DNA of 64,000 nucleotides from Oscillospiraceae bacterium (GTDB lineage: Bacteria; Bacillota; Clostridia; Oscillospirales; Ruminococcaceae): positions 1 through 64,000 of the forward strand of contig JAEEIA010000060.1 of the NCBI GenBank assembly GCA_016281125.1, written 5' to 3'. The position numbers and the translations under genes are program-made. Of the stretch, positions 16,454 through 56,862 are shown piece after piece. The notes below the pieces were generated by a model. That model was given only the letters and a program-made list of their open reading frames with translations, had not been told where the DNA came from and did not search any database. Within the stretch, counting starts at the first letter, position 1. Each line of letters opens with the position of its first letter.

Positions 16454-16945
16454 ATGAACGATTTTGATGCGGTTTTCCGCGAATATTACGACGACGTGTT
16501 CCGCTTTCTGCGCGGACTGTCCGCGAACGAATCGCTCGCAGAGGAGCTGACGCAGGAAACGTTCTTCCGCGCCTTTCGCTCCATCGGACAGTACCGCGGA
16601 GAATCCGAGCTGCGCGTGTGGCTCTGCTCCATCGCGCGCAATCTGTACTTCACGCACTGCAAAAAGGCCAAGCGCTTCACCGGCAGTGAGCTCCCGGAGG
16701 ATACCGCAGAGGACGGCGCCGGTCTGACCGAGCTGATCGAGGACAAGCAGACGGCCATGCAGATTCACCGCATCCTGCACACCATGCGGGAGCCGTACAA
16801 GGAGGTTTTCTCCCTTCGGGTTTTCGGAGAGCTTTCCTTTGCGGAGATCGGCGAGCTGTTCGACAGGAACGCGCACTGGGCATGCGTCACGTATCACCGC
16901 GCCAAAACGATGATACAGGAAATGATCGGAGGAGAAACAACATGA
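16454..16945 (+). CDS. ECF-type RNA polymerase sigma factor
   Basis: 163 residues, the size of a minimal ECF sigma factor. Region 2 (about 1-75) holds FREYYDDVFRFLRGLSANES and the -10-binding helix LRVWLCSIARNLYFTHC; region 4 (about 105-160) holds EVFSLRVFGELSFAEIGEL and a helix-turn-helix ending NAHWACVTYHRAKTMIQ. GGGAGG precedes the ATG. The stop overlaps the next gene's start (ATGA), and the next gene encodes a membrane zf-HC2 protein, the usual anti-sigma arrangement. The signal it answers is unknown. It is clearly paralogous to the sigma factor at 28518-29033. Confidence 0.95.
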   Translation: MNDFDAVFREYYDDVFRFLRGLSANESLAEELTQETFFRAFRSIGQYRGESELRVWLCSIARNLYFTHCKKAKRFTGSELPEDTAEDGAGLTELIEDKQTAMQIHRILHTMREPYKEVFSLRVFGELSFAEIGELFDRNAHWACVTYHRAKTMIQEMIGGETT

Positions 16946-17778
16946 AACTGGAATGTGAGGTCATCCGCGACCTGCTGCCGCTTTACGCGGAAAACATGGT
17001 CAGCCCGGCATCGCGGAAGCTGACGGAGGAGCATCTGGCGGAATGTGAGCCGTGCAGACAGTATCTGAACGGACTGACTGCACCGGCGCCGGATGTGCAG
17101 TTCCGCCTGGACAGCGCACAGCAGTTCGTGCGGTTTGAAAAAAAGAAAAAGTGGCGGTTCGGGACAAAGATCGCGCTTGGCACGCTGCTGATTGTCTGCG
17201 CCGTTCTGCTTGTTATCGGCATCAAGTTCTTCAATATCGCTGCTCTGCTGATTTACAGCATTGTCAGCCCGACGGTGCAGGTGGATTCGGATCCCGCACA
17301 TTATGCGCAGTATATGGGGGAACAGGCAGAGCAGGAATACCGCATCAAATGCGGCATGGACGAAAGCATCTTCCCCGCCGCACTGACAGACAGCATGGAT
17401 GTGCAGGACTATAAAATGGTGTACTATAATCCGTGGGATCCGCAGTATCTCAGCTATCTGACCGTGACCTATCCGCCGGAGGCGTATGAGGCGGAGCTGA
17501 AACGGCTGGAGGCCTGTCCGCATACGGAATACAAGGGATATTACGATGTGACGGGCTTTGCAGGCGGCGAGCCCCTGGCGGTCAGTGCAGACAGCTATTT
17601 CGGCTTTGTCTACGCGATCAATACACCGGGCATGGAATATTCCGTCACCTACGCGGAAATCATCTTCTGCAACAGCCTGATGGATCTGGATTACAGGAAA
17701 TACATTCCCGCAGCGTATCTGCCGGATAATTTCAATGTCCGGATGAGCGTCATGCCGTTTGTACGGGAAGGGGAATAA
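16942..17778 (+). CDS. Membrane anti-sigma factor with zf-HC2 domain
   Basis: 278 residues. Cytoplasmic zinc-binding anti-sigma domain with the pattern EEHLAECEPCRQYL (H-x3-C-x2-C, residues 30-43) preceded by MKLECEVIRDLLPLYAENMV; one membrane helix (about 78-108, IALGTLLIVCAVLLVIGI); then a ~170-residue extracytoplasmic domain rich in Tyr and acidic residues with no recognised fold, presumably the sensor. Start 16942 overlaps the sigma gene by four bases. It should hold the sigma factor at 16454 at the membrane until a signal arrives (family knowledge). Confidence 0.9.
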   Translation: MKLECEVIRDLLPLYAENMVSPASRKLTEEHLAECEPCRQYLNGLTAPAPDVQFRLDSAQQFVRFEKKKKWRFGTKIALGTLLIVCAVLLVIGIKFFNIAALLIYSIVSPTVQVDSDPAHYAQYMGEQAEQEYRIKCGMDESIFPAALTDSMDVQDYKMVYYNPWDPQYLSYLTVTYPPEAYEAELKRLEACPHTEYKGYYDVTGFAGGEPLAVSADSYFGFVYAINTPGMEYSVTYAEIIFCNSLMDLDYRKYIPAAYLPDNFNVRMSVMPFVREGE

Positions 17779-21063: not shown

Positions 21064-21858
21064 TCATATCAGCTTTTCCCAGGGAACATTCTGCTGGGAA
21101 ACGACGTTTCTGGTGTAGTAGAGCAGAATCAGCTGGGCATCCTCCACGCTGATCTGACCGTTCAGGTCGGCATCCGCACGTTTGGTCTGTGTATCGTCAA
21201 AGCCTGTCCCCTGCCCGGACACCTTTCTGGTATATGCTTTCAGCACAATCTGCGCATCCTCAACGGAAACCTGTCCGCTGCCGTCCACATCCCCGCGCAG
21301 TCCGGATACGGCGGCGGATGATTCTGTATACCGCGTATAGAAATAGATCTTATTGTTTTGCAGCTCGGTGAAGCTGATGGTTCTGCCCCATTTCACCCTG
21401 CCGATCCGGTCACTTCCTACAACATTGGCCTCCGCGACTTCAACGGAATCCGAAAGCCGCCGCAGCACGATGACGGAGTGCTGATTGCTGCCCGCGTAAT
21501 AGCGCAATACGTCACCGGCGCGTGCATCACGGACATTGGCAAATTCCTTCACGCTTCCGGATGTCCCGAACGCCGCGTCACTGAGAATCGCAGCAAATGC
21601 AGCACAGCCGGCAGTGCGCTGTCTGGCAGCCTCCCATGTATACGGGTTCGATTGCAGGCTGTACGGCGTATTGTTGTCAAACTGCCTGCCGTCCGGATAT
21701 TGGGATTTCATTGCAAGCAGCTTCTGATACACAGCCTGCTCCTCACTCACGGTGACCGCAGCAGCAGAAAGACTGTTCTGCCGTTCCGGCGCAGAAAAGG
21801 CCGAAAGCGTCATGACCGCACAGAGCAGCACAGCCAGATATTTTGCGATCTGTTTCAT
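21064..21858 (-). CDS. Secreted dockerin-bearing cysteine peptidase/amidase
   Basis: 264 residues. Signal peptide MKQIAKYLAVLLCAVMTLSA; a ~150-residue papain-like/CHAP-like module with a probable nucleophile in TAGCAAFAAILSD (near residue 84) and His in GSNQHSVIVLR (near 126); then a type I dockerin made of two calcium-loop repeats, GDVDGSGQVSVEDAQIVLKA and DADLNGQISVEDAQLILLYY. The dockerin implies anchoring to a cohesin on a scaffoldin or the cell surface. Peptidoglycan amidase or peptidase activity is inferred from the Cys/His layout only. It has its own near-perfect sigma-A promoter, unlike the two larger dockerin genes of this window. Confidence 0.85.
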   Translation of the reverse strand: MKQIAKYLAVLLCAVMTLSAFSAPERQNSLSAAAVTVSEEQAVYQKLLAMKSQYPDGRQFDNNTPYSLQSNPYTWEAARQRTAGCAAFAAILSDAAFGTSGSVKEFANVRDARAGDVLRYYAGSNQHSVIVLRRLSDSVEVAEANVVGSDRIGRVKWGRTISFTELQNNKIYFYTRYTESSAAVSGLRGDVDGSGQVSVEDAQIVLKAYTRKVSGQGTGFDDTQTKRADADLNGQISVEDAQLILLYYTRNVVSQQNVPWEKLI

Positions 21859-28466: not shown

Positions 28467-28496
28467 TGTAACGAATCAGCATCCTGATTCGTCTAA
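28467..28496 (+). promoter_or_regulatory. ECF-type (autoregulatory) promoter with embedded palindrome
   Basis: TGTAAC (28467-28472) and GTCTAA (28491-28496), spacer 18 (17 if CGTC is taken as the -10 core). The spacer is part of a perfect inverted repeat ACGAATCAG-CATC-CTGATTCGT at 28471-28492. The -35 and -10 boxes match those of the two large dockerin genes. Confidence 0.65.
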
Positions 28497-28517: not shown

Positions 28518-29033
28518 ATGGGGAAAATGCAGGCCGAGTTCGACGAAATCTACCGGCTTTACGCCGCGGATGTCTACCGCTATCTGCTGCGGCTGACACA
28601 AAATGAAACGCTCGCCGAGGATCTGCTTCAGGACACAATGCTCAAGGCATTCACGTCCATTGACAGATTCCGCGGGAACTGCGCCGTCAAAACATGGCTC
28701 TGCACGATTGCGCGCAACCTCTGGTGCGATCACTGCAAAAAGGCGGAAAACCGCAATCTCCCGCTGGAATCTGCCGGGGAGGTTCCCGATGCCGTCAGCT
28801 TCGAGCAGCAGCTCGCGGATCAGTCCCGCGCACTGCAAATTCACACGCTGCTGCACCGCATGAAGGATCCCTATAAGGAGGTCTTTTCGCTGCGGGTCTT
28901 TGCGGAGCTGAGCTTCCGGGAGATCGGAAGGGTGTTCGGGAAAACAGAAAACTGGGCACGCACGACCTTTTACCGCGCCAAACAAATGCTGATCGGTATG
29001 CTGGAACAGGAGGATGCTTATGAAACAGAATGA
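28518..29033 (+). CDS. ECF-type RNA polymerase sigma factor (second)
   Basis: 171 residues. Region 2: FDEIYRLYAADVYRYLLRLT with KTWLCTIARNLWCDHCKKAE as the -10 recognition helix; region 4: EVFSLRVFAELSFREIGRVF plus NWARTTFYRAKQMLIGML. AAAAGGAGG precedes the ATG. It overlaps the anti-sigma gene by 14 bases. Preceded by both a sigma-A and an ECF-type promoter, so it probably activates its own operon. The same ECF-type boxes occur before the dockerin genes at 51233 and 53818, making those likely targets (inference). Close paralogue of the sigma factor at 16454. Confidence 0.95.
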   Translation: MGKMQAEFDEIYRLYAADVYRYLLRLTQNETLAEDLLQDTMLKAFTSIDRFRGNCAVKTWLCTIARNLWCDHCKKAENRNLPLESAGEVPDAVSFEQQLADQSRALQIHTLLHRMKDPYKEVFSLRVFAELSFREIGRVFGKTENWARTTFYRAKQMLIGMLEQEDAYETE

Positions 29034-30177
29034 ATATACCTGCGCCGTCATCCGGGATCTGATCCCGCTGTGCGAGGAATCGCTTTGCAGCCCGGAATCC
29101 CGCACTGCCGTGGAGGCGCATATCAGACAATGCGAATCATGCAGAAAGCTCTGCGGCGCGCTGCCGCAGGATCCCTTTGCAGAGCCGGTGCCCGTTCCGG
29201 ATGAGGCCAGCACATTCCGGAAGGTCGGGCAGCGCATCCGGCGGAACAAGCGTGCCGCTGTGACCCTGCTGATTCTGCTGATCCTGCTGCTGGGCGCACT
29301 GGGGTATCTGACAGCCGGGCAGATTTTGAAGGAACCGGACATTCAGAGCTTTGAAACACTTGCGCAGAGCGCGGATGTCCGCCCGCTTGTCCGCAAACTC
29401 ACGGACGGCGACTATGAAGGCTTTGTCAGCAGCCTGAGCGCCGGCGTCATGGTTCCGCCGGATGTGTATCATTATTTGCAGTCATTCCGGGAAAAAGACA
29501 CGGAGCTCCTGAAAAATACGTATGAAGCTGCATTCGGCGGAACAGAGGTCAGGCGGATCCGGATCGAATCAAATTACACCGTGGCTACTGCAAGTGCAGC
29601 CCCCTTTATCATGTCGGAAGTTTTGATCAGGTACCGGAACGGCTGTGAGCTGTGTCTGGAGTTTTACCGTGAGGTTGACGGTCTGTACAACTGTGCTTTT
29701 GCGTACACCGGCGGTTTTGAGGATTCGGAAACGAATGAACGGATATTAAATGCGTTTAATTATATCTGCGATCATCAGCTGCAATCCGCATGGACCATGC
29801 AAAGAGTCATGGTCAATCAGACGCCGTTCACGGATTCCAAGGAGGATCAGAGCCGGCTGGATAACCGGTGCAGCATGATCAAAAACCGGTTTGTACCGGA
29901 CTGCGCGCAACAGGTCGGGGAGCGTCTGAAAGCCTTTTATCAGAAGGGCTATCTGATTACAAAATGCGACCTCTCCGAGGTGCGGTTTGACAATGACTCG
30001 CAGTTCCTGTACTATACGCTCTACGTGACGGCGTCGGACGGGCAGGGCACGGCGATGCTCTCCGCGGTCATGCCGTTCACATACGAGGGACTCCGCCCGC
30101 TGAGCACGTCGCTGAACACCGTCTGCACGGACGGCTGTACCCCGGCGCTCGCAGAGGATCTGCGGACACTGTTTTGA
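29020..30177 (+). CDS. Membrane anti-sigma factor with large extracytoplasmic domain
   Basis: 385 residues. The zf-HC2 domain has AHIRQCESCRKLCG (H-x3-C-x2-C near residue 35), one membrane helix follows (AVTLLILLILLLGALGYLTA, about 82-101), then a ~280-residue outer domain with helical and beta stretches and four Cys, much larger than in the first anti-sigma protein of the window. Start at 29020 follows ACAGGAGG by six bases; the ATG at 29014 is too close to that site. The outer domain is the presumed sensor; no ligand-binding fold was recognised. Confidence 0.88.
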   Translation: MKQNEYTCAVIRDLIPLCEESLCSPESRTAVEAHIRQCESCRKLCGALPQDPFAEPVPVPDEASTFRKVGQRIRRNKRAAVTLLILLILLLGALGYLTAGQILKEPDIQSFETLAQSADVRPLVRKLTDGDYEGFVSSLSAGVMVPPDVYHYLQSFREKDTELLKNTYEAAFGGTEVRRIRIESNYTVATASAAPFIMSEVLIRYRNGCELCLEFYREVDGLYNCAFAYTGGFEDSETNERILNAFNYICDHQLQSAWTMQRVMVNQTPFTDSKEDQSRLDNRCSMIKNRFVPDCAQQVGERLKAFYQKGYLITKCDLSEVRFDNDSQFLYYTLYVTASDGQGTAMLSAVMPFTYEGLRPLSTSLNTVCTDGCTPALAEDLRTLF

Positions 30178-51232: not shown

Positions 51233-53500
51233 TTATGCTTCTGCGCCGGAAGGCGGCGGGGTCTTGTTCCCCATGATCTGCCGCTTCATCAGCGTCAGAT
51301 CCGCGGCATTGATGCGGTTATCATTCAGCAGATCCGCTGCAAAGAACTGTCTGCCTTCCAGTCTGCCGGTGCCGCCGAGATACTTGCTCAGCGCCACGGC
51401 ATCCTCAACGGTCATTTTGCCGTCGCCGGTAACATCGCCCATGGTGACCTTGAATTCCGTCAGCGAAAGATCCTCAGCAACATCATAATACTTGGTGTCC
51501 AGAACCGTGCCGTCGTGATATTCCCATTCCCGCGCATGCCGCGCCGTAATCTTCAGCTGTCCCTTCTGCTTCGGCTTATATACGAAGAAACGATAGGTTC
51601 TGTTGCCGCCCGTCGCGCCGTTGTTCGGTTCATAGCTGAACGATGCTTTTTTCACAAGCTCGGCGTCCGTTGTTCCGGCTGTTTCCGTCAGAATCTCGTA
51701 GCCGGTCGATACATTGGTTTCACCGCAGCAGACGATATAGCCGTCATGCACGGAAACCGCCCGGTTGTTTTCATAGAATGCCTTTGCCTCCGTGAAGTTC
51801 TCAGGCAAAAAGTCATATTCCTGCGATGCATTGCTGTCCGTAATTTTCAGATCCTCGTCCACGGCAAAGGAGAACAGTCCCTCAACCTTTTCCGGTGTGT
51901 CCCCCTTCATTCTGACCCACTTCATGCCGAGATTGCCCGCGGACGTCACCTTGAACACCATGACCTGATAGCCTTGCTCGACGTTTCTGTCATTGGACAG
52001 CAGGATCTGCCGCGTGGTGAGCAGCTCATGCTTTGCAAAATCACCGACGGTATCCGGATCGTCCAGCACATAATGCACCTTATCCGACAGTTCGTAGGGC
52101 AGGCACAGGCAGAGAATGCCGTCCTGTGCATGCCAGTCACCGCAGTTCAGGCGGAATTCCGTCGCTTTTTTCTCATTGGACGGAACCCAGCCCGGAACTG
52201 CCCCTTCCTCCTCCGCGGCAAAGCAGAGCACACCGTCTGCATCCCGCGTTACCGAAATATTCACTGTTTTATCGAATTTCTTAGATCCGTTTCGGATGTA
52301 AGCAGTGATAAGGCACGGCTCCTGCACATCAATATACTGAATATAGCATTCGCCGTCAACCGCCATGCCCGGCTCCACAACAGGCTTGCAGTCCACGCTG
52401 ACCGTTCTCAGCGATTTGCCGTCCTTCTCAAATGCGACCATCGCCATCGCCGGAGAAAGTCCGCCGTAAGATGCCGTTGCCACGATCAGATAATGTCCTC
52501 TGTTGTCAATGTTGAATTCATTGTACATCTCTGTGCTTGATACGAGTCCCTCGCTGCGCAGGAATGCATACGCCTCGCCGGAGGTATCCGGGACATATTC
52601 GCGCCATTCCTCCGCTTCCTCAACATACGAGCGCACCGTGATGCTGCCGTCGGTATCCTTCTCGGCATACAGCGTTCTGGTGACGCTGAACGGTTCATCC
52701 TCGGGCTCGCGGAATTCGTGCGTAAAGGTCGCTTTGACCGTTCCGGGCTTCGTGACCGGGCAGAACGCCACAAAATAGGTAGGCTGATCGGTCGGCTCGG
52801 GGCCTTCAAAAATATAATTGCAGCTTACATGCTTCAGCGTCAGCGCCGCGCCGTCCAGCTCAGCCTTGCTTCTCATGTAGCTGCCGCAGAAGCCGTCGTT
52901 GATCGCTGCCATGAGCAGATAATTGCTCCGGCTGTCAATGACGCACTGCGTCCAGGAGTCCCGGCCAAACCCCCACTCTGAGTTGACTGAATTCATAAAT
53001 GCAGTGTATTCCGTTTTGCAGTCCGGCACAAATACGCGCCAGTCAGTCTCGGTCACATGCAGACTCTCATCGACCGCGAAGATATACTGATCCTCGTCTT
53101 TCACCTTTTCCTCGACCGCATTGAGGTTGCAGTCATAGAGCACGACAGTTTTTGCTTCCTCCGGCTTGTAGGCCGTGACATGGAAGAACTTGTCAGCGCA
53201 ATTCATTTCCTCCGGTACGCAGTACCATTCGTCCAGCAGCGTTTCGGTGTTGCCGGAGCCGAGCAGCGGCAGACGCTCCCAGCCGTCTTTGTACCTGTGG
53301 AAGGTGACAATGCAGATCAGATCATCATCCACATACGTACTGCCGTAGGTGTTGATGAACTTGCATGCATCGCCGTAGTTCTGCGGCACCCAGTCCGGCA
53401 CTCCGAATCCGGCCACACGAATCGCCGGGATAGTCGGCAGTGCCGTGCAGAACATCACTGCGGAAAGAATCGCCGATGCTGTTTTCTTATATTTCATCAT
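51233..53500 (-). CDS. Large secreted dockerin protein built of repeated modules (paralogue 1)
   Basis: 755 residues. Signal peptide MMKYKKTASAILSAVMFCTA; then five copies of a ~120-145-residue module that begin at about 35 (VPDWVPQNYGDACKFIN), 157 (FVPDCKTEYTAFMN), 302 (YVPDTSGEAYAFLRS), 436 (VPGWVPSNEKKATEFR) and 563 (FLPENFTEAKAFYE). Each opens with a VP/LP strand, a short helix A-x-x-F and a G, then a beta-rich tail ending in PG-x-(L/V/T)-K/T-A-type strands. A type I dockerin (GDVTGDGKMTVEDAVALSKY and AADLLNDNRINAADLTLMKR) ends it. No catalytic motif. Start at 53500 or 53497 behind AAGGAG. Controlled by an ECF-type promoter at 53604-53632. Presumably a cellulosome/surface component; ligand unknown. 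Confidence 0.85.
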   Translation of the reverse strand: MMKYKKTASAILSAVMFCTALPTIPAIRVAGFGVPDWVPQNYGDACKFINTYGSTYVDDDLICIVTFHRYKDGWERLPLLGSGNTETLLDEWYCVPEEMNCADKFFHVTAYKPEEAKTVVLYDCNLNAVEEKVKDEDQYIFAVDESLHVTETDWRVFVPDCKTEYTAFMNSVNSEWGFGRDSWTQCVIDSRSNYLLMAAINDGFCGSYMRSKAELDGAALTLKHVSCNYIFEGPEPTDQPTYFVAFCPVTKPGTVKATFTHEFREPEDEPFSVTRTLYAEKDTDGSITVRSYVEEAEEWREYVPDTSGEAYAFLRSEGLVSSTEMYNEFNIDNRGHYLIVATASYGGLSPAMAMVAFEKDGKSLRTVSVDCKPVVEPGMAVDGECYIQYIDVQEPCLITAYIRNGSKKFDKTVNISVTRDADGVLCFAAEEEGAVPGWVPSNEKKATEFRLNCGDWHAQDGILCLCLPYELSDKVHYVLDDPDTVGDFAKHELLTTRQILLSNDRNVEQGYQVMVFKVTSAGNLGMKWVRMKGDTPEKVEGLFSFAVDEDLKITDSNASQEYDFLPENFTEAKAFYENNRAVSVHDGYIVCCGETNVSTGYEILTETAGTTDAELVKKASFSYEPNNGATGGNRTYRFFVYKPKQKGQLKITARHAREWEYHDGTVLDTKYYDVAEDLSLTEFKVTMGDVTGDGKMTVEDAVALSKYLGGTGRLEGRQFFAADLLNDNRINAADLTLMKRQIMGNKTPPPSGAEA

Positions 53501-53603
53501 ACTCACTCCTTCTGTTTCCTGATTAAGTTCAGCCGTTCACATGACTGTCTGCGGAGCAGCCGCTTCCGGTCAGCCGCCTGCCGTGTCAGTCCCTGCTGTT
53601 TAT

Positions 53604-53632
53604 TAAGACAAATTCCGGAGAAAAAGGTTACA
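53604..53632 (-). promoter_or_regulatory. ECF-type promoter of dockerin gene 1
   Basis: Minus strand TGTAAC (53627-53632), 17 bp, GTCTTA (53604-53609), about 100 bp before the start. It is shared with dockerin gene 2 including flanking bases; no sigma-A promoter seen in the 317-bp gap 53501-53817. Confidence 0.65.
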
Positions 53633-53695
53633 GCTTTTCCGGAAAAATTTTTTCAATTCATTGCAGGCGCAGATGCACACCGCCGGAAACAGCCG

Positions 53696-53723
53696 GAGCG
53701 CCCCGTTTTTGTGCGGGACGCTC
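53696..53723 (-). terminator. Hairpin downstream of dockerin gene 2
   Basis: Minus strand GAGCGTCCCG/CGGGGCGCTC (one G-T pair), eight-base loop, no clear T-run. Related to the hairpin at 51160-51195. Confidence 0.5.
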
Positions 53724-53817
53724 TGACTGTTTTATAGGAGTGTGTATCAAAGATGTAATGCATTAAATGTTGGTTCTCATAGAACGCCCTCTGCCGCAGC
53801 GTGCGGCTCAGCACCGC

Positions 53818-56475
53818 TTATGTTCTCTCTGCGTAAATGAGCCGCTGCTTCATCAGGGACAGATCCGCTGCATTGATGCGGTTGTCATTGTTCAGATCCG
53901 CTGCAAAGAACAGATTGCCGTCCAGCGCACCCTGACCGCTGAGGTACTTGGTCAGTGCCACGGCATCCGAAACAGTCAGGCTGCCGTCACCGGTGGCATC
54001 GCCCGCGGTGACCTGGAATTCCTTGAGGGAAAGATCCTCACCGACTGTATAATACTTCGTATCGAGAACCGTGCTGCCGTCGCTGAGATCCCACTCGCGT
54101 GCGTGCATGACCTTCACCTTCAGCTGACCTTTCTGCTGCGGCTTGAGCACAAAGAACCGATAGGTTCTGTTGCCGCCCGTCGCGCCGTTGTCCGGCTCAT
54201 AGCTGAATGAAACCTTCTTCACGATCTCTGCGCCTGCATCGCCCGCTGTTTCCGTCAGAATCTCGTAGCCGGTCGAGAGATTGGTCTGGCCGCAGCAGAC
54301 GATATAGCCGTTCTGGATGGAAATCGCACCGTTCTTTTCATAGAACGCCTTTGCATCGGCAAAGCTCTCAGGCAGGAAGGAGAAGTCATCCTCTGTCACA
54401 TGGCCGTTTCTGATGTTCAGATCCTTGTCCGCCGTAAAGAACAGCACCTTCTCGCATTCCAGATTCCGGACGTCGCCGCTCTGCGTGACCTTCACCCACT
54501 TCATGCCGACATTGCCCTCTGTCGTGACCTTGATCACGACAACACGGTAGCCCTTCCGCACACCGTTGGGTTCACCTTCCACATACTGCCGCGACCAGAT
54601 CACCTTATGCTCTGCAAAATCGCCGATCGGAGAAGGATCGTCCAGAACATGATAGTCATCGCCCTTTTCCTCGTAGGGCAGGCACAGGCAGAGAAGTCCC
54701 TTTTCCGCGCGGAAATCGCCGTATGCCTCGCGGAAGTCCGCACAGGCCTCAGCACCGACCGGAACCCATGCCGGAACAGCCTCCTCGTTTTCGCGCAGGA
54801 CAGTGATCGTGCCGTCTGTATTCTTCACAGCGTTCAGCGTGATCTGCTTTTCAAAATTCTGACGCTTGACGCTCAGGATTGCCGTATACGTGCCGGGCTC
54901 TGTGATCTTTGCATATGCGATTTCTTCTGCGCCGTCAACTATCCCGGTATTGATGATATGCAGCTCGCAGTTCACCCAGGTCAGCTCGATTTCCTCGCCG
55001 TCCTTTTCCAGCCTGCAATCCACATGCTCAGTCGAAATACCGACGTTATCCTCAAACACCACATAGCTTCCGACAGCGTCCGCGTTGCAGGCCATCACAT
55101 AGCTGTTACCCAGTCCGTACCGACCGGCCGCAATTTGGAACAGTCTGGCCTCTCTGTTGCAGTCCGGTACAAATCCGCGCCAGTCTGTTTCCGTCACATG
55201 CAGGTTTTCATCAACCGCGAACTCATATTCTTCCGTTTTTTTGTTCTTATTCGTGTCGTAATCATAGAACACAACGGTCTTTGCTTCCTCCGGCTTGTAA
55301 ACCGTAACATGATAATATGCCTGCGGCAGGTTATACGAGATCGGTCCGTCCGTTTCATACCACGCATCCAGCAGCGTTCTGCAATTTCCGGATCCGGTCA
55401 GCGGCAGGCGCTCCATGTCCTTCGACCAGTGACGCGTCACAATGCAGATCGTGTCATCCGCAACATACGTGTCACCGTGATTATTATGGAAATCACAGGC
55501 TGCACCGACAGTCTGCGGCGCCCAGTCCGGCACCTCCGTGTTTGTCAGCTCGGTCAGGAAGAACCGGTTGTTTGCCGTGATGTCAGACTGATACTTTTTG
55601 CTGACCGTTGTCTGCGTATGATCCGGATCCGCCTCTGTCCATGTGATCTTTGCCGAAATAACGCCGGTTCGTGCGATTTCATAATACTTCACATAGTCCT
55701 CGGCACTTCCGGGCGGCGCCTCTGTCATGCCCTGTGCCCGGCAGTTTGCGGTATGCTCGGCCGCCATCTTTTCGCCGTTCCACTCGACCTCCATGCTCAT
55801 GTCGGCGCCGGTGCTGTAATTGACCCTACCCGCCAGAATCAGTGCGCCGTTCTCTGTATAAAAATTGCCGTGTTCTTCGATGAATGCATCGTATTCCGTC
55901 TTGCAGTCCGGCATGACTGCCCGCCAGCCGGTTTCCGCGACCGCCAGCGTATCGTCTGCGGCAGTGAAGGTATACACCTCCTGCGCGGAAGGAGAAGCGG
56001 AAACCGTTGCGTCAGCAAACGAATACTGCCGTATGATCTCATTGTCACCGGCCTGCGTCGGCTTCCACACGCTGACGAAGTAATGCACGTCTGCGTTGTA
56101 CTGCTCCTCCATACGCCGCTGCTCCGCATTGGCTTCCCAGTCCGCGCGTTCCTTTGCGCTCATGGATTCGAGATCCGGCATGCCGTCCTGCGCCTCATAG
56201 CGGATCTCTGTCTGAAAGATGCGCTCCGCAGCACCATTCGAGAGATGCTCGTCGCATTGCGGTTTCAGGTCATTCTTCATGCGTTTTACAATACAGTAGA
56301 CGCCGTCAGCTGCATGTGTTGCGCCGTAAGTGTTCTGAAATTCCAGTGCCTTTTCAAAATCCTGCGGCACCCATGCGGGCAGGGCCGCGTCCGCCGCATA
56401 CACCGCCGGAAATGCCGGCACGGCCGCGCAGAACATCACCGCTGAGAGAAATGCTGCTGTCTTCTGTTTCTTCAT
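53818..56475 (-). CDS. Large secreted dockerin protein built of repeated modules (paralogue 2)
   Basis: 885 residues, paralogue of the gene at 51233-53500. Signal peptide MKKQKTAAFLSAVMFCAAVP; six modules starting near 32 (LPAWVPQDFEKALEFQ), 188 (VMPDCKTEYDAFIEEHG), 315 (VPDWAPQTVGAACDFHN), 435 (FVPDCNREARLFQI), 567 (VPAWVPVGAEACADFRE) and 701 (LPESFADAKAFYEKNG). The last module and the dockerin (GDATGDGSLTVSDAVALTKY; AADLNNDNRINAADLSLMKQ) are the most similar to paralogue 1, with shared TGYEILTETAG and NGATGGNRTYRFFV blocks. Start at 56475 (AAGGAG eight bases upstream). Driven by an ECF-type promoter. Confidence 0.85.
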   Translation of the reverse strand: MKKQKTAAFLSAVMFCAAVPAFPAVYAADAALPAWVPQDFEKALEFQNTYGATHAADGVYCIVKRMKNDLKPQCDEHLSNGAAERIFQTEIRYEAQDGMPDLESMSAKERADWEANAEQRRMEEQYNADVHYFVSVWKPTQAGDNEIIRQYSFADATVSASPSAQEVYTFTAADDTLAVAETGWRAVMPDCKTEYDAFIEEHGNFYTENGALILAGRVNYSTGADMSMEVEWNGEKMAAEHTANCRAQGMTEAPPGSAEDYVKYYEIARTGVISAKITWTEADPDHTQTTVSKKYQSDITANNRFFLTELTNTEVPDWAPQTVGAACDFHNNHGDTYVADDTICIVTRHWSKDMERLPLTGSGNCRTLLDAWYETDGPISYNLPQAYYHVTVYKPEEAKTVVFYDYDTNKNKKTEEYEFAVDENLHVTETDWRGFVPDCNREARLFQIAAGRYGLGNSYVMACNADAVGSYVVFEDNVGISTEHVDCRLEKDGEEIELTWVNCELHIINTGIVDGAEEIAYAKITEPGTYTAILSVKRQNFEKQITLNAVKNTDGTITVLRENEEAVPAWVPVGAEACADFREAYGDFRAEKGLLCLCLPYEEKGDDYHVLDDPSPIGDFAEHKVIWSRQYVEGEPNGVRKGYRVVVIKVTTEGNVGMKWVKVTQSGDVRNLECEKVLFFTADKDLNIRNGHVTEDDFSFLPESFADAKAFYEKNGAISIQNGYIVCCGQTNLSTGYEILTETAGDAGAEIVKKVSFSYEPDNGATGGNRTYRFFVLKPQQKGQLKVKVMHAREWDLSDGSTVLDTKYYTVGEDLSLKEFQVTAGDATGDGSLTVSDAVALTKYLSGQGALDGNLFFAADLNNDNRINAADLSLMKQRLIYAERT

Positions 56476-56590
56476 CGTGATCACTCCTTCAGGTCATCGT
56501 ATTTTATATGTTTCGTTTCATCACACGCTGATGCGGCAAAGCAGCGTGCCTCCGAACGGCTGCCCTGCCGCATCATTGCCTGCTGTCTAT

Positions 56591-56619
56591 TTAGACCGTT
56601 TTCCATACAAAAGGTTACA
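56591..56619 (-). promoter_or_regulatory. ECF-type promoter of dockerin gene 2
   Basis: Minus strand TGTAAC (56614-56619), 17 bp, GTCTAA (56591-56596). Downstream bases (GACAGCAGG..TGA..CGGCAGG) also match gene 1. Of the 483-bp gap 56476-56958, only this promoter and the parA promoter could be recognised. Confidence 0.65.
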
Positions 56620-56862
56620 GCATCTTCGGAAAAAAATACAAAAAAGAATAATTCACTGTTCCCCGTTCTATTCAATTATATCACACAATCATAGAGAATG
56701 TCATGCGGATCAGAGAATTCATGCAGACAAATCCGCATTTCCGGCACAGTTCGCAGGCCGCAGAATGCAAAACAGCAAAGTGCACGGATTTCAACAGAAA
56801 AAGCGCTGTTTTTTCTCCGGCAAAACTGTGGGCTCCGCCGCCTTTTTCCCCCGCTGCCCCTC

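Follow-up and report, generated by a model that had tools for sequence, protein, structure and literature searches.

The stretch analysed here (the window) comprises the first 64,000 nucleotides of contig JAEEIA010000060.1 (assembly GCA_016281125.1) of an Oscillospiraceae bacterium, whose genome (G000, in which the window is C80:1-64000) amounts to 3.9 Mb on 98 contigs. On its minus strand lie two large genes for secreted dockerin proteins, each preceded by a two-part element that resembles a promoter for sigma factors of the extracytoplasmic function (ECF) type. The gene at 51233..53506 encodes a protein of 756 amino acids (aa) as translated, with a signal-peptide-like start, repeated domains and a C-terminal dockerin, and the gene at 53818..56484 a protein of 888 aa with repeated alpha+beta/Ig-like domains, the last of them weakly chagasin (I42)-like, and a C-terminal dockerin. 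Dockerin_1 scores over its cut-off of 22.9 bits at the C-terminus of both proteins (41.5 and 42.4 bits). The element of the 756-aa gene, TGTAACCTTTT-N12-GTCTTA with 17 bases from TGTAAC to GTCT, is located at 53604..53632, and that of the 888-aa gene, TGTAACCTTTT-N12-GTCTAA, at 56591..56619, both on the minus strand and both kept in homologs. A preliminary description of the window had read them as TGTAAC-N17-GTCTTA (53632-53604) and TGTAAC-N17-GTCTAA (56619-56591), exactly where they are found; the matching flanks that it reported are present as well, but the genes are paralogous (50% identity across 452 aa), and the flanks are therefore not independent. The evidence set out below supports an ECF-type promoter class and points to a sigma factor encoded on another contig, C4, as its probable reader.

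The pattern TGTAAC-N16-18-GTCTWA has three matches in the window, versus none in 100 dinucleotide shuffles. A search of the whole genome, which the preliminary description had proposed, gave five matches, three before ECF genes (C80:28467, C38:11908 and C71:70587) and two before the window dockerin genes; the hexamers thus mark ECF promoters, without telling which ECF factor reads them. A looser pattern, GTAAC-N16-19-GTCTA, had six matches, adding the ECF gene on contig C4 (the C4 sigma gene) and a gene for a 1254-aa LRR_5/dockerin protein on contig C59, with a further match at C76:7817. The counts remained below those of the backward control (5 vs 9 for the strict and 6 vs 77 for the looser pattern), and bare-pattern counts were rejected as proof of enrichment. 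In stretches cut around the box upstream of nine homologous dockerin genes from six genomes, TGTAACCTTT and GTCT were the only runs of at least four identical columns, and the boxes are kept in relatives whose DNA further upstream aligns poorly. The same boxes before ECF genes, together with this conservation, support the proposal that the dockerin boxes look and behave like ECF-type promoters.

The window encodes an ECF sigma factor of its own (28518..29033, plus strand), a protein of 171 aa with Sigma70_r2 and r4_2, which matches the general ECF model over the cut-off and whose best NCBIfam score, for the SigM subfamily, is below the cut-off. Its closest named relatives come from metagenome-assembled genomes labelled Oscillospiraceae (sheep omasum), Clostridiales and Ruminococcus sp. 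An anti-sigma-like partner follows at 29014..30177 on the plus strand, with zf-HC2 at 26.9 bits (cut-off 22.2) and, judged by eye, one hydrophobic membrane segment; the presence of an ECF sigma factor and a membrane partner in the window, as first described, is borne out by these domain matches. The own promoter of this sigma gene (28467..28496, plus strand), TGTAACGAATC..CGTCTAA, had been considered to carry the same boxes as the dockerin genes. It does share the TGTAAC and GTCTAA hexamers, but its spacer is 18 bp instead of 17, and the -35 is followed by GAATC where the dockerin boxes have CTTTT. It belongs to an GTAACGAA class, as do the promoters of four orthologs, which read GTAACGAA..CGTCTA in L066, L067 and L068 and GTAATAAA..CGTCTAA in L153. 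An 8-bp inverted repeat, CGAATCAG-4-CTGATTCG (28472-28491, plus strand), fills the spacer of the window sigma's promoter and is not kept in the four ortholog promoters.

Two matrices were built exclusively from other genomes, the first from six distinct C4-type sigma promoters (seven genomes) and the second from four promoters of the window-sigma type, and both were scored over selected stretches of the genome on both strands (1,063,776 distinct positions); whole genomes were scanned by patterns, and with the model at 150 candidates per genome. The top four positions of the C4-type matrix were the promoter of the C4 sigma gene (33.2), the box at 56591 (31.2), the site before the C59 gene (29.1) and the box at 53604 (28.1), and the same four sites held ranks 1, 2, 3 (tied) and 5 when the five T-tract columns were left out. 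The window-sigma matrix put the promoter of the window sigma gene itself first (25.6), with 56591, C59 and 53604 at ranks 91, 199 and 765. These scores led us to reject the window sigma as the regulator of the dockerin genes, a role that the preliminary description had assigned to it. The pattern GTAACCTTTT-N9-14-GTCT has four matches in the whole genome, before the C4 sigma gene, the C59 gene and the two window dockerin genes, versus none for the backward control. By simple identity to 28 own ECF promoters of this genome, picked by eye, the C4 promoter is nearest to 56591 (18/20) and to C59 (19/20). This suggests that two ECF classes having the same TGTAAC and GTCTAA hexamers are separable by the bases after the -35 and before the -10, and that the hexamers alone probably put the two dockerin genes under the wrong sigma factor. 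Rank 5 of the C4-type matrix (25.2) is occupied by TGTGACTTTTT..CGGTCTATATAAG before a gene for a 311-aa surface-protein-like product (L334:700-1796, plus strand, on C79), a possible fifth target of this promoter class. By eye, its product starts with a signal-peptide-like segment, contains a dockerin-like calcium loop and ends in a membrane anchor.

The C4 sigma gene (C4:1202-1768) encodes an ECF factor of 188 aa with Sigma-70 r2 at 34.7 bits (cut-off 24) and r4_2 at 39.1 bits (cut-off 25.7). It overlaps by 4 bases with the next gene, which encodes a 435-aa single-pass membrane protein with a conserved short start, followed by a membrane segment, a stalk rich in Thr and Ala, and an outer domain that is divergent. 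An ortholog of this partner in G041 has a DUF2275 match below the cut-off (E 0.014), and a Foldseek search with the outer domain of the G024 ortholog (model with a predicted local distance difference test score, pLDDT, of 83) returned no match at E 0.001 or better. Orthologs of the C4 sigma in G041, G020, G024 and G003 (86-89% identity) have the same promoter class. Across the nine genomes with C4-type sigma promoters, TGTAACCTTTT is present in all, with a -10 of GGTCTA in four, GGTCTT in one, GGTCAT in three and GGTTAT in one; those with 72-73% orthologs keep TGTAACCTTTT and have GGTCAT (G001, G002 and G044) or GGTTAT (G011).

The distribution of the promoter class was followed through 30 genomes of the genus, nine of which have a C4 ortholog (at least 72% identity). 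What sets the motif apart from its control is its distribution over the genomes and the genes downstream: GTAACCTTTT-N9-14-GTCT gave 22 matches versus 6 for the control in the nine genomes with a C4 ortholog, and 2 versus 11 in the other 21. A GGTCA form of the motif, a pattern picked after the ortholog promoters had been seen, gave 11 matches versus none. Among the 35 matches with either ending, nine are before an ECF gene (eight C4 orthologs and a divergent one of 49% identity, in G015), 12 before dockerin genes, five before genes for LRR_5 secreted proteins and one before the gene of a small secreted protein, followed by a dockerin gene. Of the remaining eight, two overlap a start codon, three are unclear, and one each concerns an acyltransferase, a DUF2079 protein and YfhO. 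With phylogeny ignored, the motif is present in 9/9 genomes with a C4 ortholog and in 2/21 others (Fisher p 3.8e-6), these two being G016, which is only 76% complete, and G015, where the motif precedes its divergent ECF gene. With the sigma genes' own promoters left out, the figures are 9/9 and 1/21.

We consider it probable, on these sequence comparisons, that the two window boxes serve as promoters in a small ECF regulon, which the C4 sigma reads once released by its membrane partner. The sequences themselves show the promoter class, its conservation, its association with the C4 sigma gene across genomes and its poor fit to the window sigma. We infer C4 sigma binding, the inhibition and orientation of the partner, the signal and the purpose as follows. 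The C4 sigma would be held by the single-pass membrane protein encoded directly after its gene, and a surface signal would free it; the free factor would then use one promoter class to transcribe its own operon (at TGTAACCTTTT..GGTCTA), the two window dockerin genes, the third dockerin/LRR (leucine-rich repeat) gene on C59 and perhaps the wall-anchored protein on C79. The purpose may be to change which non-enzymatic dockerin/LRR proteins sit on the cell surface. The preliminary description is confirmed in part in its observation and supported in part in its interpretation, and the outcome is a promoter sequence together with a specific sigma gene and three to four candidate target genes.

Several points weigh against this reading. 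The raw counts over all 30 genomes are unconvincing (24 matches vs 17 for the backward control), and the co-occurrence of motif and C4 ortholog is not corrected for phylogeny. When only matches before dockerin, LRR or other secreted proteins are counted, the comparison becomes 7/9 (not G002 and G003, the dockerin promoter of the latter having one mismatch to the motif) versus 1/21. The co-occurrence is also partly built in, as nine matches are the sigma genes' own promoters and GGTCA was chosen post hoc. Neither Pfam (up to E 0.1) nor NCBIfam (up to 0.01) gave a match for the C4 partner, zf-HC2 included, and it is a putative anti-sigma factor by virtue of its position (the 4-base gene overlap) and topology. 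Sigma-A-like sites occur before the 888-aa gene and two homologs. Finally, the box at 53604 has a -10 (TTGTCTTA) that fits the C4 class less well, and by simple identity it is nearest to the promoter of a paralogous ECF gene, C56a (17/20), with C4 and three others at 16/20; the assignment of 53604 to C4 is therefore held less firmly. The own promoters of C56a and of another paralog, C79b, also contain TGTAACCTTTT.

These paralogs belong to a large array. The genome has 54 region-4 matches, 48 of them over the cut-off, and the C4 sigma has 30 paralogs there (E of 1e-25 or better). Partners were surveyed for 42 of the 54, some being cut at the locus end; the 12 omitted were L261-L263, L269, L270 and L274-L276 (by judgement), C55 (outside the fetched loci), and C80:28833, C80:16757 and C38 (seen elsewhere). 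The ECF gene overlaps the next gene by 4 bases in 32/42, and in 36/42 the next gene encodes a protein of at least 262 aa with exactly one predicted membrane segment in the part seen, within the protein's first 132 residues; three others (L007, L021 and L257) are near fits, and L010, L012 and L023 do not fit. The array thus holds at least 36 ECF/membrane-partner pairs, the C4 sigma among them. Out of 18 long partners scanned, 15 had no Pfam match at E 0.01, two had PASTA repeats and one had a serpin domain. The latter (L321:4532-6022, minus strand, on C25) carries the serpin after one membrane segment at residues 143-495 (profile 19-370 of 370, E 1.1e-60) and is possibly a protease-sensing anti-sigma factor; serpins are present in 26/30 genomes of the genus. 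The PASTA repeats in L328:222-1916 (plus strand) and L329:4445-5965 (minus strand), in four and two stretches, suggest a cell-wall signal.

That C56a, C79b or several such paralogs with cross-talk read one or all of the dockerin promoters is an unlikely alternative, though one that the shared TGTAACCTTTT and the proximity of C56a to 53604 keep in view; PMC6056542 discusses cross-talk of this kind, among related sigma factors, for SigI and for the ECF factors of Bacillus. The -10 elements of C56a and C79b are, however, TTCTAA and TTCATA, not GTCTA, their sites score 21.1 and 24.1 with the C4-type matrix compared with 28.1-31.2 for the dockerin promoters, and 56591 and C59 are nearest to C4 among the own ECF promoters compared.

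Alternatively, the boxes could be conserved for another reason, for instance as the site of a regulator, with sigma-A driving the genes. The preliminary description had seen no sigma-A promoter at either gene. This held for the 756-aa gene, where the scan found none, but not for the 888-aa gene, which has ATGACA-18-TATAAT (56675..56704, minus strand; 11/12, the second hexamer being preceded by TG) upstream of the ECF box; the scan of this upstream region gave two sites, versus 0.7 in shuffles. A looser sigma-A pattern matches at a similar distance in 2/8 other homologous upstream regions (G020_C20 and G024_C52), so that double control is possible. Sigma-A-like sites also turn up before other dockerin genes. 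Among 150 listed dockerin matches, from 308 first-look candidates, 80 further genes were taken from the upper part of the list (leaving aside the window's own pair, repeats in the same frame and some frames that were very short or very long), and the 75 usable upstream regions (350 nt, with starts picked by a heuristic) have 21 such sites forward versus 6 in reverse. Against this explanation stand a two-part layout with ECF spacing, the occurrence of the same boxes immediately before ECF genes, the class shared with the sigma's own promoter and the negative sigma-A scan before the 756-aa gene, and we consider it very improbable for the window genes. Control by the window sigma (28518) is scarcely credible: the same hexamers do occur inside one 64-kb window, but its class is the GTAACGAA-like..CGTCTA of the four ortholog promoters, its matrix places the dockerin sites far down, and G023 and G008 have orthologs of it (71% and 57% identity) yet no dockerin-type motif.

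TGTAAC was found on the coding strand in none of the 75 other dockerin upstream regions (eight times on the opposite strand), and a loose ECF-like pattern occurred twice forward and three times in reverse. The idea that dockerin genes as a class are under ECF control was rejected on this basis; control by the C4 sigma, as favoured here, would be confined to a narrow regulon and would not extend to the whole cellulosome. A general signal control of cellulosome assembly was not supported by these counts, nor by the sigma-A-like sites of the other dockerin genes.

The dockerin gene pair is flanked by an alanyl-tRNA synthetase gene on one side and, by sequence, ParA/ParB-type genes on the other. 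The model of the 888-aa protein has repeated domains (mean pLDDT 73), and Foldseek returned mostly long Ig-like chains at poor root-mean-square deviation; only the Ig-like and chagasin hints were retained. One domain resembles EhICP2, a chagasin-type inhibitor (E 7.9e-4, probability 1.00, TM by target 0.53), and the final domain before the dockerin weakly matches Inhibitor_I42 in 6/8 homologs (best E 1.7e-4). A TN-x-[ST]TGY segment, similar to a chagasin loop motif, is present in 6/8 homologs. The likeness to chagasin (I42) inhibitors concerns the last domain before the dockerin; the difference is that the scores shown (16.4 bits for the window 888-aa protein and 22.2 bits for L225) are below the Pfam cut-off of 27.2, and any inhibitory role is putative. 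Soon past the expected transcription start of the 888-aa gene, the leader contains a hairpin (56529..56575, minus strand) with a 10-bp perfect stem, TGATGCGGCA/TGCCGCATCA (minimum free energy, MFE, -39.1; z -5.0). Leaders of ten ECF-class dockerin targets fold into long hairpins (MFE -25 to -42, z -0.6 to -5.0), compared with a median MFE of -18.0 and z of -1.1 for leaders of other dockerin genes; these hairpins were left out of the evidence for the ECF reading. Elsewhere, the window has a third, small dockerin protein (21064-21858, minus strand; 264 aa, 25.0 bits) and a second ECF sigma/zf-HC2 partner pair (16454-17778, plus strand) with an upstream box of its own, TGTGATATTTT..GTCTTATA.

To our knowledge, it is unclear how cellulosome producers without SigI/RsgI control their many dockerin proteins, and no title that we found in the literature, which was judged mostly by titles, named ECF sigma factors as controlling dockerin genes in Ruminococcus-like bacteria. 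SigI/RsgI is described as the biomass-sensing system of Clostridium thermocellum (PMC4711584, PMC6056542), and SigI as a sigma factor without region 4 (PMC6056542). The regulator proposed here resembles it, as presented in these two papers, in its multi-copy sigma/membrane-partner pairs, overlapping genes, autoregulation and dockerin genes among the targets, and in a partner built of an inner part, a membrane-spanning segment and an outer domain. It differs in that the C4 sigma is a true ECF factor with region 4, in promoters of TGTAAC/GTCTA instead of the AAA/CGWA described for SigI, in that Pfam recognised no carbohydrate-binding module in any of the 18 long partners or in that of C4, and in that the candidate targets include only three dockerin genes. 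RsgI_N was found in none of the 30 genomes of the genus, while in a control set of 14 genomes it was matched in Bacillus subtilis. SigI/RsgI is thus unlikely here, and it was rejected as the dockerin regulator; an ECF-based version in its place, as the preliminary description had it, is plausible, but only for a narrow set of genes.

Classic ECF/anti-sigma modules (SigM, SigX, SigV and SigW types) share with the C4 pair Sigma70_r2 and r4_2, a co-encoded membrane partner, an autoregulatory promoter, AAC in the -35 and GTC in the -10, and a T-tract after AAC has been described as acting in ECF promoters (Gaballa 2018, as cited by PMC6056542). The C4 system differs from them in the 30 paralogs of its sigma factor in one genome and in its candidate targets, which are dockerin/LRR surface proteins. 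We tentatively suggest, as a possibility still open to considerable doubt, that the genus replaced SigI/RsgI by a large ECF/membrane-sensor array with nearly private promoter codes, in which the C4 pair would be a dedicated switch for non-enzymatic dockerin/LRR proteins, and in which, given varied outer domains that include a serpin, some pairs may sense gut proteases directly.

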